A stretch of DNA of 64,000 nucleotides, from NCBI RefSeq assembly GCF_000744115.1, contig NZ_JQLG01000004.1:930001-994000 (forward strand). The letters are read 5' to 3'. Shown one piece after another: positions 4,385-14,410 of the stretch. Under the pieces are notes generated by a model. The model was given only the letters and a program-made list of their open reading frames with translations. It made no database searches and had not been told where the DNA came from. Position 1 is the first letter of the stretch. Every line of letters starts with the position of its first letter. The DNA is from Carnobacterium alterfunditum DSM 5972 (GTDB lineage Bacteria > Bacillota > Bacilli > Lactobacillales > Carnobacteriaceae). The position numbers were made by a program, and so were the translations under genes.

Positions 4385-5821
4385 TTATAATTCTTCGCCA
4401 TTAGTAGCAATTACATTCTGATACCAATCAAAGGAAGATTTTTTGAGACGTTCAAGTGTTCCGTTTCCTTCATTATCCTTATCCACATAGATAAAGCCGT
4501 AACGTTTTTCCATTTCTCCAGTAGAAAAACTCACAATATCGATACAGCCCCAAGGAGTGTAACCCATTAGGTCTACCCCATCTTCTTCGACAGCTATTTT
4601 CATCTGCTGAATGTGCTTTTTAAGATAATCAATACGATAATCATCCTGGATAGTACCGTCTGCTTCAATTTTATCGTACGCACCTAAACCATTTTCGACG
4701 ATAAATAAAGGCAGATGATATCTTTCCGTTAGGATATTTAAAGTATATCTTAAGCCAACTGGATCGACCGGCCAGCCCCATTCACTTTTCTCAAGGTAGG
4801 GGTTATCGGTTAATTTCAATTGATCCACTGAGCCATCTTGCCAACCCGGTATAGAATCTAAGGCTGTAACAGTACTTGACATGTAATAACTCAAACCGAT
4901 GTAGTCGATAGTTCCTTCACGCAATAGTTGGAGTTCTTCTTTGTTATAGTCAATATGGTAGCCTTCAGTTTCCCACAATCTCAGAGTAGCCGCCGGAATC
5001 TCACCGTGTACATGAATATCATTGTAGAAGAATCGACGATCCATCGCTTTTACAGAAGCGATTAAATCTTCAGGATTAGAAGAATATGGATAAACCGGCA
5101 CATAGGCCATCATGCAGCCAATTTGGAAGTTGCGATTTATTTCATGACCAATTGCCACTGCCTTTGCACTGGCAATCAGTTCGTTCAGACTTGCTTGATA
5201 GACCACTTCTGCTTTATTGTCGCCTTCATTAAAAACCAAAGCCGAATTATTAAAGACATGTAAGTCTCGGTAGCCATCTGCCTGATTATTAATTTCGTTA
5301 AAGGTCATCCAGTACGTCACTTTATCTTTGTAACGCTCCATGACCGTTTTTGCGTAATGAGCAAAAAAATCAATCAGCTTCTTATTCCGAAATCCCCCGT
5401 ATTCTTTACACAAATGGTAAGGAATTTCGAAGTGAGATAAAGTCACGACCGGCTCGATGTTATATTTCAATAATTCATCAAATAAATCATCATAAAATTG
5501 CAATCCTGCTTCATTTGGTTCCTTTTCATCACCTAAGGGGAAAATCCGACTCCAGGCAATAGAGGTACGAAAACATTTAAAGCCCATTTCAGCAAACAAA
5601 GCGATATCTTCCTTGTACCGGTGATAGAAATCGATTGCCTCGTGACTCGGATAATCATAACCCTCTAATATACCTTGGGTTATTTCTCTCGGAACAGAAT
5701 GCGTACCTTTAGTAATGACATCCGCTGTGGAGATACCTTTTCCGGCTTTGTTCCAACCGCCTTCTATTTGATTAGCCGCCACAGCGCCGCCCCAAAGAAA
5801 ATCTTTTCTGAATCCTTTCAC
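4385..5821 (-). CDS. GH1 6-phospho-beta-glucosidase
   Basis: A cytosolic glycoside hydrolase family 1 enzyme, 478 residues, the usual length. The acid/base glutamate is Glu176 (TFNEINNQ) and the nucleophile is Glu376 (FIVENGLG). The phosphate-binding signature of 6-phospho-beta-glucosidases is present as Ser433, Lys439 and Tyr441 in [17 protein letters not shown]. The GTG start at 5821 is backed by AAAGGAGGG eight bases upstream. It is the last gene of an operon with an ABC importer, a GH94 phosphorylase and a ROK kinase. In that setting a 6-phosphate substrate would have to come from the kinase, since no PTS lies in this operon. A second GH1 gene with a PTS is at 22866-24338. Confidence 0.9.
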
Positions 5822-5910
5822 TTCTCTTGCCCTCCTTTTGTCAAATTGAATCTTCCATTAAGTTTGGACTGACTTGTACAAATTGACCAACTTTTTATTT
5901 TAGCCTCATT

Positions 5911-6873
5911 TTATCGACTAACTGGATCGCTTTCTTGTTTTTCACTTTCCAGCTTTCTTTCGCGGTCTTCTTTCATAGCTTTATAGCTTGCGCCAACAAT
6001 ACCTGCGTCGTTGAGGAAATGACACGGCACTATTTTTGCCAGCGTCATATTTTTCATATCACGATGTCCCGCTTGTAAACCTTGTACTCTTCGATTCAAT
6101 TCTTGTATAAAACTTTGATTAGCGCTGATGCCTCCTCCTACCAGAACGACCTCTGGATCCAACGAGACCAACACGTTGTAAATGCCGATTGCAAGATGGT
6201 CGTAAAAAGCATCAATCACATTTTTGGCTCGTAGATCTCCCGCCTCTGCAAGTTGGAAGATATCTTCCCCATCAAGATCTTGTTGGGGCATTGTCGCGTC
6301 AGATCCATCTAAGTATCTTTGGACTAAGCCGGATTGAACTGAACTCGTCAGGCTCACGGATGAAAGTCGGGTGTCACCATTTAAAACGGGCGCATTGATC
6401 ATAAAACCAAATTCCCCAGCTGTTGCATGTGCCCCGCGGTAGATATCATTATTGATCATAACGGCTCCGCCAATTCCTGTTCCTACTACGGCCGTAAAAT
6501 AGTTCTTGTATTTTCGCCCGGCTCCGAGCCATTTTTCGGCTAAAGCTGCACTATTTGCATCATTCTCGACTGCGACGTGCAGCCCTAATTCTTTTTCCAA
6601 GATATTTTTTAAATGGACACCATAGAAATCAAAAATCGCACCTCCCGTCGTCATAAAACCTGATTCTTCTACGATGCCTGGTGCACTGATGCCCACAGCT
6701 CTTATATCATGAGCTTCTTTATAATTCTCTACGATTATTTTGATATTTTTGATTATTTCAACACCCTCTGAGCTGGTCTTGATTTTGTCCTTATGCAAGA
6801 TATTGCCTTTTTCATCTAGGAGGCCGTATTTAATATTTGTTCCTCCTATATCGATACCAATATATTTCCCCAT
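5911..6873 (-). CDS. ROK-family sugar kinase, BglK-like (beta-glucoside kinase)
   Basis: ATP-dependent sugar kinase, 320 residues. ROK motifs seen are the N-terminal phosphate loop IGIDIGGTNIKYG, the catalytic aspartate in VENDANSAALAE, GTGIGGA and GEFGFM. The CxCGxxGC zinc motif of most ROK glucokinases is missing. The pattern SAPGIV..GGAIFDF..VENDAN..GTGIGG resembles Klebsiella BglK, which phosphorylates cellobiose-type disaccharides at O6. The start is placed at the second ATG (6873), which has AGGA six bases upstream; the ATG at 6885 has its only purine run directly against it. Its neighbours are a GH94 phosphorylase upstream and a 6-phospho-beta-glucosidase downstream. Glucokinase is the alternative function. 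Confidence 0.85.
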   Translation of the reverse strand: MGKYIGIDIGGTNIKYGLLDEKGNILHKDKIKTSSEGVEIIKNIKIIVENYKEAHDIRAVGISAPGIVEESGFMTTGGAIFDFYGVHLKNILEKELGLHVAVENDANSAALAEKWLGAGRKYKNYFTAVVGTGIGGAVMINNDIYRGAHATAGEFGFMINAPVLNGDTRLSSVSLTSSVQSGLVQRYLDGSDATMPQQDLDGEDIFQLAEAGDLRAKNVIDAFYDHLAIGIYNVLVSLDPEVVLVGGGISANQSFIQELNRRVQGLQAGHRDMKNMTLAKIVPCHFLNDAGIVGASYKAMKEDRERKLESEKQESDPVSR

Positions 6874-6916
6874 TTTTTTCCTCATTCCTGAACAATAAGT
6901 CGATATAGAAATATTT

Positions 6917-13317: not shown

Positions 13318-13352
13318 ATTTTTTTATTACCGTTCTATAATAAAAAAATTCG

Positions 13353-14363
13353 TTATTTTTTCACTTGTCTTGTTGTCTCACGCTTGATCAATCGCACGGG
13401 AATCGTCTTCTTGACCGGCAAGCAATTCGGATTTAGAATACTTTCGATCGCCAATAATCCTGCTTGTTGACCGATTTTTTCTTTATCTTGAGCGATTGTC
13501 GTTAAAGCTGGTTCCATATATTTAGCGATCTCGATATCGTCGAATCCCACGACCGATATATCTTCCGGAACACTTAAACCATACTCTTTGATTGCTTGGA
13601 TCGCCCCAATCGCCATTTGATCCCCAGACACAAACACCGCGGTTGGAGGCTCACTTAGGCGAAGCAATTTCATCATGGCCATTCGACCACCATCCGCTGA
13701 GTAATAACCACCATTCATGATGTACTCCTCTGGTGTGTTCAAACCATGTGCACTGATCGCATCGTTGAAGCCTCTCATTCTTTCTACACCAATAAATCCA
13801 GTACTTTCTCCGTGTATATGCGCAATTTTTTGATGCCCTAATGCAACTAAATGATCAACTGCCATTAGTGCACCATGATAGTTATCGCTATATACAGAAT
13901 TAAAATCATTTACTTCCATATCGATAAAGACACATGGGATACCCAGCTCACGATAGATTTTCAGATCAGATTGATCCGAATCGGTACTGAAGACAACAAT
14001 ACCATCGACACCCCTGCGAATCAGCTGGTTCGTGTAGCTTTCTTCCCCTTTGATACTTCTGGATACAAATAATAAGTCATAATTATGCATATCAACAAAT
14101 TTCCGGAAACCTTCAATTACTGGTCCAAAAAACGGATGAGCCATACCAACACCTAAATTTTCTGAGAACACCACTCCAATCATATTTGATTTTTTGGTTG
14201 CCAACGTGCGCGCAGACGAGTTCGGAACGTAATCCAAGGTCTCGATAGCTTCCAAAACCTTTTTTCTGGCTCGACTACTCACATTGGTGCTGTTGTTCAG
14301 CACTTTCGAAACAGTTGAAATTGAGTAAGCTGCTTCTTTTGCAACATCATAAATCGTAGCCAT
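13353..14363 (-). CDS. LacI-family repressor of the glucan operon
   Basis: DNA-binding regulator, 336 residues. The N-terminal helix-turn-helix is typical LacI ([23 protein letters not shown]), followed by the hinge [13 protein letters not shown] and a sugar-binding periplasmic-protein-like core. The start ATG at 14363 has a modest GAGGGAGAAG site. It is transcribed in the same direction as the operon, with its own near-palindrome at 14391-14410 just upstream, so autoregulation is likely. The inducer is probably an imported beta-glucan oligomer or a phosphorylated product; that part is inference. Confidence 0.93.
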
Positions 14364-14390
14364 ATGTATTCTTCTCCCTCGCTGCTTTCA

Positions 14391-14410
14391 TTAGTAAAGC
14401 GTTTTACTAA
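14391..14410. promoter_or_regulatory. Operator upstream of lacI
   Basis: The near-perfect 20-bp palindrome TTAGTAAAGCGTTTTACTAA has only its central bases asymmetric. Its GTAAAGCG-TTTAC core is shared with the operator at 13292-13307. It lies 28 bp before the lacI start. Confidence 0.75.

Follow-up and report, generated by a model that had tools for sequence, protein, structure and literature searches.

Within a 64,000-nucleotide stretch of the Carnobacterium alterfunditum DSM 5972 genome (contig NZ_JQLG01000004.1, positions 930,001–994,000; hereafter the window), seven codirectional open reading frames (ORFs) separated by small gaps occupy the minus strand at 4385–14363. From their sequences we consider it likely that they form a LacI-controlled operon for the use of beta-1,3-gluco-oligosaccharides, combining ATP-binding cassette (ABC) import, a phosphorylase-type enzyme of glycoside hydrolase (GH) family 161, a ROK-family kinase acting on laminaribiose, and a GH1 6-phospho-beta-glucosidase. 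The direct results of our analysis are the gene content and protein families, the conserved residues and those of the phosphate site, the operator-like sites, and the recurrence of the gene set in other genomes; from these we infer the substrates and all reaction steps in this organism. By Pfam and NCBIfam assignments, the order is lacI, the gene for a sugar-binding lipoprotein (SBP), two permease genes, and the genes for an enzyme of 1035 amino acids (aa), a ROK kinase, and a GH1 enzyme, which agrees with the operon of LacI, binding lipoprotein, two permeases, and 1035-residue enzyme that a preliminary description of this DNA had outlined. The genes, all on the minus strand, are as follows.

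13353..14363, minus strand: LacI-family repressor (Pfam LacI and Peripla_BP_3); a related LacI gene occurs in L006, L010, L011, and L187 (L numbers denote loci and G numbers genomes)
11911..13248, minus strand: SBP (Pfam SBP_bac_8/1); Cys20 is kept in all 11 aligned rows
10943..11845, minus strand: ABC permease, MalF-like (Pfam BPD_transp_1)
10044..10940, minus strand: ABC permease, MalG-like (Pfam BPD_transp_1)
6917..10024, minus strand: GH161 beta-1,3-glucan-phosphorylase-type enzyme, 1035 aa (Protein Data Bank [PDB] matches 9qqk and 9h8v)
5911..6885, minus strand: BglK-like ROK kinase (best NCBIfam model BglK; zinc motif absent; E158-F-G-F at the ExGH position)
4385..5821, minus strand: GH1 6-phospho-beta-glucosidase (NCBIfam PRK09589; S433, K439, Y441)

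In the proposed pathway, the SBP and the two permeases would import laminari-oligosaccharides with the help of a shared MsmX/UgpC-type ATPase from elsewhere in the genome, where such a protein is encoded (492 bits against a cut-off of 432). The GH161 enzyme would then phosphorolyze the oligomers to glucose 1-phosphate, halting at laminaribiose, which the ROK kinase would phosphorylate with ATP at O6 of the non-reducing glucose, and the GH1 enzyme would split the laminaribiose 6'-phosphate into glucose 6-phosphate and glucose, the latter to be taken up by the organism's own glucokinase. The kinase step would remove laminaribiose, an acceptor for the reverse reaction, and so should pull phosphorolysis forward. 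The preliminary description had proposed the same succession of import, phosphorolysis, phosphorylation, and hydrolysis for beta-1,2-glucans and sophorose; that logic agrees with the genes present and is found again in other GH161 loci, but the substrate is very probably a different one.

The 1035-aa Enzyme Belongs to GH161

The best solved relatives of the 1035-aa enzyme in the PDB are 9qqk ("GH161A," 791 bits) and 9h8v (789 bits), which match residues 7–1033; 9h8v is deposited as "Cellobiose phosphorylase," and by the alignments its sequence is nearly that of 9qqk. In the same search, the single GH94 chain at E <= 10 was the laminaribiose phosphorylase 6ggy (E 0.07), and the GH94 protein 5h3z gave no match at that level. 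No Pfam family matches the enzyme, NCBIfam returns only a weak match to GH149 (114 bits against a cut-off of 1150), and the GH94 protein encoded elsewhere in the same genome has no significant similarity to it by BLAST (19 bits, E 1.8). Full-length similarity exceeding that to GH94 and GH149 therefore places the enzyme in GH161, similarity of the kind expected of a GH94 1,2-beta-oligoglucan phosphorylase (Lin1839 type) was not found, and the label GH94 given in the preliminary description has to be dropped. Size and operon shape alone are thus poor grounds for naming large phosphorylases GH94 or assigning them to beta-1,2-glucans. An alignment of 100 rows has 124 columns with conservation of 97% or more, D527 and D641 among them, and E522, G523, W525, D527, H528, W529, K636, P637, W639, and D641 are each kept in at least 97% of the rows. 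D641, in its W-N-D context, presumably resembles the catalytic Asp of GH94. The characterized bacterial GH161 enzyme PapP phosphorolyzes laminaritriose and not cellotriose, leaves laminaribiose uncut, and uses laminaribiose as an acceptor (PMC6484121).

The Kinase and the GH1 Enzyme

The best NCBIfam model for the ROK protein is BglK, and its best PDB relative, whether compared by sequence or by predicted fold (predicted local distance difference test [pLDDT] 84), is 4htl, which one file designates a beta-glucoside kinase but whose title reads putative N-acetylmannosamine kinase. The protein lacks CxCGxxGC, its sole Cys being residue 288, and the His of ExGH is replaced by Phe, so that the BglK-like ROK without a zinc motif of the preliminary description is confirmed; we regard it, from its sequence, as BglK-like and not as a proven BglK. 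A zinc-type glucokinase is not supported, as both motifs are absent and a dedicated glucokinase, which has both, is encoded elsewhere in the genome (L001; TIGR00744, 341 bits against a cut-off of 260). The zinc motif and the ExGH His are likewise lost in all 10 aligned BglK-like ROK proteins from outside GH161 loci, and their loss therefore marks the BglK-like group and not this function. BglK-like ROK genes are also present in other ABC sugar loci together with GH3 (L159, L160), and with GH1 of the loop type SPMNA-FKNRYG in L163 and L165.

The GH1 enzyme scores 774 bits with PRK09589, above the curated cut-off of 624, and carries the Ser433, Lys439, and Tyr441 to which the preliminary description had drawn attention, a combination that identifies it as a 6-phospho-beta-glucosidase. 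These residues, which we matched by spacing and number, are one position off Ser432, Lys438, and Tyr440, the phosphate contacts of LpPgb1, and SmBgl also binds phosphate with Gly where LpPgb1 has Ser432 (PMC3605045). We counted GH1 proteins as phospho-type if columns 439 and 441 hold Lys and Tyr and either column 431 or column 433 holds Ser; in the SWLNG type, Ser stands in column 431 only. Inclusion of the SWLNG loop is an assumption that we take from 6-phospho-beta-galactosidase structures; in this analysis it is supported only by phosphotransferase system (PTS) neighbors, the loop also occurring in GH1 proteins beside PTS EIIC genes in L128 (this genome) and L042, and we hold it to be phospho-type without regarding this as proven. 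The genome has seven GH1 matches, the GH1 of the operon among them; others of these also have a phospho-type loop, and two such genes lie beside PTS genes (L131 and L128). A phospho-type GH1 gene at about 22866–24284 of the window adjoins a PTS EII gene, the usual PTS beta-glucoside route.

Kinase and GH1 with Phospho-Type Loop Residues Recur Together in GH161 Loci

To place the operon among its relatives, we collected GH161 loci from a genome scan (71 loci) and from whole-genome searches. GH161 matches were found in 22 of 398 genomes of the class and 9 of 395 genomes of the order (each count including the window's own genome), and in 13 of 159 genomes of the family of G376. In the window's own family, the only match among 18 genomes is C. 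alterfunditum itself. A Trichococcus genome carries the same operon with a GH161 enzyme 83% identical and, compared by eye, other flanking genes; because the 17 other family genomes have no GH161 while Trichococcus has the operon, transfer of the operon is likely.

Our tally comprises 56 loci, the window excluded, with partners counted within 9 kb, ROK matches accepted at 100 bits or more, and partner classes assigned by the best phmmer match to one seed each. It consists of 23 of the 71 scan loci (Bacillota and one Mycoplasmatota), 20 of 21 regions, and 13 of 17 regions, after removal of L106 (on the same contig as L009) and of L195, L201, L202, and L203 (copies of L011, L014, L010, and L006); the other 48 scan loci gave one ROK hit of 35 bits (L047) and no GH1. 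Outside the tally are four of the 13 genomes of the G376 family, namely G376 (L106), G505 and G517 (positions of L008 and L012), and G518. Some contigs end near the GH161 gene, and several loci of the tally are close kin.

A ROK gene is present in seven of the 56 loci (L006, L007, L008, L012, L013, L187, and L200). GH1 with phospho-type loop residues accompanies it in all seven, compared with 2 of the 49 other loci (L019 and L042), an association with a Fisher p of 1.6e-7 that takes no account of kinship. The prediction that a kinase-type GH161 locus carries a phospho-type GH1 is thus, by loop residues, true in 7/7 other loci. Within 9 kb none of the seven has a match to GH1 beta-glucosidase, GH3, GH94, or GH30; over the whole tally GH30 is found in 36 loci, GH1 beta-glucosidase in 6, GH94 in 6, and GH3 in 4. 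The preliminary description had suggested a search of genomes for the order GH94-ROK-GH1, and this order does recur, on one strand, in five of the seven ROK loci (L006, L007, L008, L012, and L200), with GH161 in the position given to GH94. L019 and L042, both from Clostridium, have a phospho-type GH1 and no ROK nearby; in L042, the close neighborhood of the GH1 genes includes an RpiR-type regulator gene and a PTS EIIC gene, the latter coming after the SWLNG-loop GH1.

In the ROK and GH161 trees the pairing requires three changes each, at least two of them supported by well-supported branches. From these trees, the kinase-type GH161 pairing may have arisen more than once, and the three changes may alternatively represent one gain and two losses. 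L187, the closest relative of the window locus besides L006, groups with these two in a well-supported clade of either tree, and scores of SBPs against that of the window are 919 for L006, 740 for L187, and 50 for L008. Because L010, L015, and L057 combine a related LacI-SBP-permease set and GH161 with other finishing enzymes (GH1 beta-glucosidase and GH30), the finishing module appears, from these comparisons, to have been exchanged.

Beta-1,3-Glucan as the Predicted Substrate

From their families, the GH16 and GH81 enzymes of these loci are expected to act on beta-1,3-glucan. A GH16 or GH81 match lies within 9 kb in 16 of the 56 loci, by one seed each, and some of the GH16 labels may rest on the carbohydrate-binding module that the GH16 seed includes; Pfam confirms GH81 in L009 and GH16 in L187, L188, L190, L193, and L196. 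Related transporter sets occur with GH16 in L187, L188, and L190–L193, and in L187 the kinase gene is followed by genes for an MsmX/UgpC-type ATPase and then an LPXTG-bearing GH16 protein.

The same genome has a second cluster (L205:7594–17338) of LacI, a GH94 enzyme of 1110 aa, GH3, two permeases, and an SBP. In the PDB, its GH94 scores 942 bits with 5h3z and its SBP 495 bits with Lin1841. We take 5h3z, listed in the PDB as "Uncharacterized protein," to be a sophoro-oligosaccharide phosphorylase. This Lin1838-1843-like cluster is probably the genome's beta-1,2-glucan locus, and the window SBP (pLDDT of the predicted structure 76) reaches only 24% over 176 residues against the L205 SBP by BLAST.

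Because the phosphorylase is GH161, relatives of the operon carry GH16 or GH81 genes, and the genome has its own Lin-like cluster elsewhere, laminaribiose replaces sophorose, and beta-1,3-glucan with laminaribiose is the reading of the substrate that the sequences support. A substrate of beta-1,2-glucan and sophorose is very probably wrong, and we rejected the beta-1,2/GH94 reading on the enzyme family and on the separate GH94/GH3 cluster. That reading, in which beta-1,2-gluco-oligosaccharides yield sophorose and then sophorose 6-phosphate, draws on a gene order like that of Lin1838-1843 (PMC3960220), on Lin1841 being the top PDB match when the window SBP and 10 relatives are combined in a profile (77 bits), and on PapP, which accepts a beta-1,2 disaccharide and for which the cited sections of PMC6484121 report no phosphorolysis of sophorotriose. 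It is nevertheless highly improbable given that the large enzyme is GH161, that L205 supplies GH94, GH3, and a far closer Lin1841 relative, that the window SBP is so distant from the SBP there, and that GH16 or GH81 accompanies GH161 as often as stated.

A second alternative keeps the operon logic and assigns the kinase and the GH1 enzyme mainly to cellobiose, gentiobiose, and other beta-disaccharides that GH161 would leave at non-1,3 linkages of mixed-linkage or branched glucans. PMC3605045 describes the phosphorylation of cellobiose, gentiobiose, and salicin by the beta-glucoside kinase of K. pneumoniae and the cleavage of the products by LpPgb1 and SmBgl; PapP also accepts beta-disaccharides with other linkages (PMC6484121), and the window operon has no GH30 versus 36 of the 56 other loci. 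As even purely linear beta-1,3 chains end in a disaccharide for which another enzyme is required, we regard this alternative as unlikely, and we retain laminaribiose as the expected substrate of the kinase.

Evidence against the Proposed Pathway

Several observations count against a pathway from beta-1,3-gluco-oligosaccharides through laminaribiose phosphate, in addition to the Lin1841 match of the SBP profile. A GH16 search of the window's genome gave no match; the organism may therefore depend on beta-1,3-oligomers freed by other organisms. PapP in synthesis also takes beta-1,2, -1,4, and -1,6 disaccharides (PMC6484121). The ROK protein reaches 184 bits with BglK, far short of the 550 set as the equivalog cut-off, and BglK is also the best model for a further ROK protein encoded in the genome (L004). 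Among the seven ROK loci, the ROK-GH1 pair of L013 is encoded on the strand opposite to GH161, 5.4 kb away from it, and the GH1 gene of L187 lies 5.7 kb beyond ROK, past the ATPase and GH16 genes and beside an RpiR-type regulator gene. Finally, hydrolysis followed by glucokinase would cost the same ATP, two per disaccharide. The gain would therefore not be energetic, and it likely consists in removal of the acceptor, less free glucose, and use of the 6-phospho-beta-glucosidases that such bacteria already hold.

Family scores of the GH1 proteins are a further difficulty. Three kinds of loop are found, that of the window and L006, DLLSWLNG-YxKRYG in L007, L008, L012, L013, and L200, and DILSSQGD-MRKRYG in L187. 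L006 (782 bits against 624) is the sole one of the seven past a phospho cut-off; the L187 protein is best matched to PRK09589 at 373 of 624 bits, and the five SWLNG-loop proteins are best matched to the beta-glucosidase model BGL (462–468, its cut-off of 478.5 being unreached) and score 378–395 with phospho models, whose cut-offs are at least 610. GH1 proteins with an E-W-x-x-G loop in five scanned loci (L010, L014, L015, L057, and L107) score 590–629 with BGL. The L128 protein narrowly passes BGL (480.7), yet has the SWLNG loop and a PTS EIIC neighbor, and BGL therefore separates the two kinds of GH1 poorly. The putative phospho type of five of the seven GH1 proteins rests on loop residues and not on family scores.

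These scores bear on a third alternative, in which ROK phosphorylates glucose or an amino sugar, GH1 serves PTS-imported phospho-beta-glucosides, and neither acts on the GH161 product. The unreached BglK cut-off, the 4htl title, the other phospho-type GH1 genes of the genome (two beside PTS genes), and the separation of GH1 from the kinase in L187 speak for it. A glucose kinase is, however, hard to reconcile with the dedicated glucokinase elsewhere and the missing zinc motif and ExGH His, and a GH1 devoted to PTS substrates is hard to reconcile with the phospho-type loop in all seven ROK-bearing GH161 loci and with an operon that holds no other enzyme for the disaccharide. We therefore judge this alternative quite improbable, and the laminaribiose pathway remains our preferred reading.

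Regulatory Sites and Neighboring Genes

Sequence features around the seven genes are as follows.

14550..15164, plus strand: divergent gene for a DUF624 membrane protein (Pfam DUF624)
14415..14443, minus strand: promoter-like site TTGACA-17-TATATT before lacI (consensus scan, 11/12)
14394..14407, no strand assigned: palindromic operator-like site GTAAAGCGTTTTAC before lacI, directly downstream of the -10 (palindrome search)
13293..13306, no strand assigned: palindromic operator-like site GTAAAGCGCTTTAC before the SBP gene (palindrome search)
11874..11898, minus strand: terminator-like hairpin in the gap between the SBP and first permease genes (11 pairs, then a T run)
4294..4340, minus strand: long inverted repeat AGAAAAGACCGCTA...TAGCGGTCTTTTCT past the GH1 gene (read from the sequence)

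A DUF624 homolog occupies the equivalent divergent position in L006 and, by eye, in L187, and the gene is part of the conserved locus. The two copies of the palindrome GTAAARCGYTTTAC are the only two in the 64 kb with at most one mismatch, where 0.07 would be expected, and the site before the SBP gene is found exactly in the window, L006, L010, and L011; near the operons of L007, L008, L009, L013, L015, and L057, no such palindrome was found with up to two mismatches. The palindromes could be operators of the LacI-family repressor, and CcpA-type sites would fit them equally well. Neither promoter-like sites (25 in the region against a shuffled mean of 32.9) nor terminator-like sites (9 against 8.6) are in excess. 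The inverted repeat at 4294..4340, which lies outside the automatic terminator scan with its loop limit of 8, is the probable end of the operon.

Two transposase copies in the same direction (DDE_Tnp_1_4; window 2159–3811 and 18418–20069) flank the operon region, 16.26 kb apart from start to start. The reading frame of the left copy is broken into two ORFs. With 89% and 86% similarity in their matched blocks, the copies are not a recent identical pair, which bears on a composite transposon reading. A protein with two DUF1541 matches is encoded at window 15968–16873. A plasmid search returned a single distant match, from Vibrio fortis (37%).

Comparison with Known Systems

The BglK proteins of Klebsiella and Listeria are, like the window ROK, ROK proteins free of the zinc motif (4htl alignment), but they belong to another operon, and the window ROK reaches 184 of the 550 bits of their model. 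The Listeria innocua cluster Lin1838-1843 shares LacI, ABC import, a phosphorylase, and a disaccharide-finishing enzyme with the window operon, yet it has GH94 and GH3, which the window operon lacks (PMC3960220); its nearer relative is L205, and the comparison with Lin1839-1843 made in the preliminary description passes to that cluster; the window operon is to be compared with the PapP/GH161 cluster. In Weissella cibaria, expression data led to the conclusion that laminaribiose is split as a phosphate to glucose and glucose 6-phosphate, as proposed here, but uptake is attributed there to a PTS and longer laminari-oligosaccharides are not growth substrates (PMC7125115); the window operon encodes ABC components.

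In the openly licensed papers that we searched, we found no description of the GH161-kinase combination, which may be in print elsewhere, and the word "kinase" does not occur in the main text of PMC6484121. The kinase step proposed in the preliminary description survives in this GH161 version. On balance, we favor the view that the operon represents an undescribed, repeatedly evolved beta-1,3-glucan route of ABC uptake and GH161 followed by a laminaribiose kinase, soluble and ATP-dependent, and a 6-phospho-beta-glucosidase, with phosphorylation of the end product pulling reversible phosphorolysis forward.

The closest known systems are the PapP cluster of Paenibacillus polymyxa and other GH161 loci (PMC6484121). 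These loci and the window operon share GH161 with ABC transporter genes, proposed cutting in the cytoplasm to a disaccharide, and a second enzyme that finishes it; for this last step those loci have either a beta-glucosidase (GH1, GH3, or GH30) or a GH94 phosphorylase, and the window operon has a kinase with a 6-phospho-beta-glucosidase. The comparison points to a soluble laminaribiose kinase and, if the pathway is correct, to a third way to finish the GH161 product, besides beta-glucosidases and GH94.

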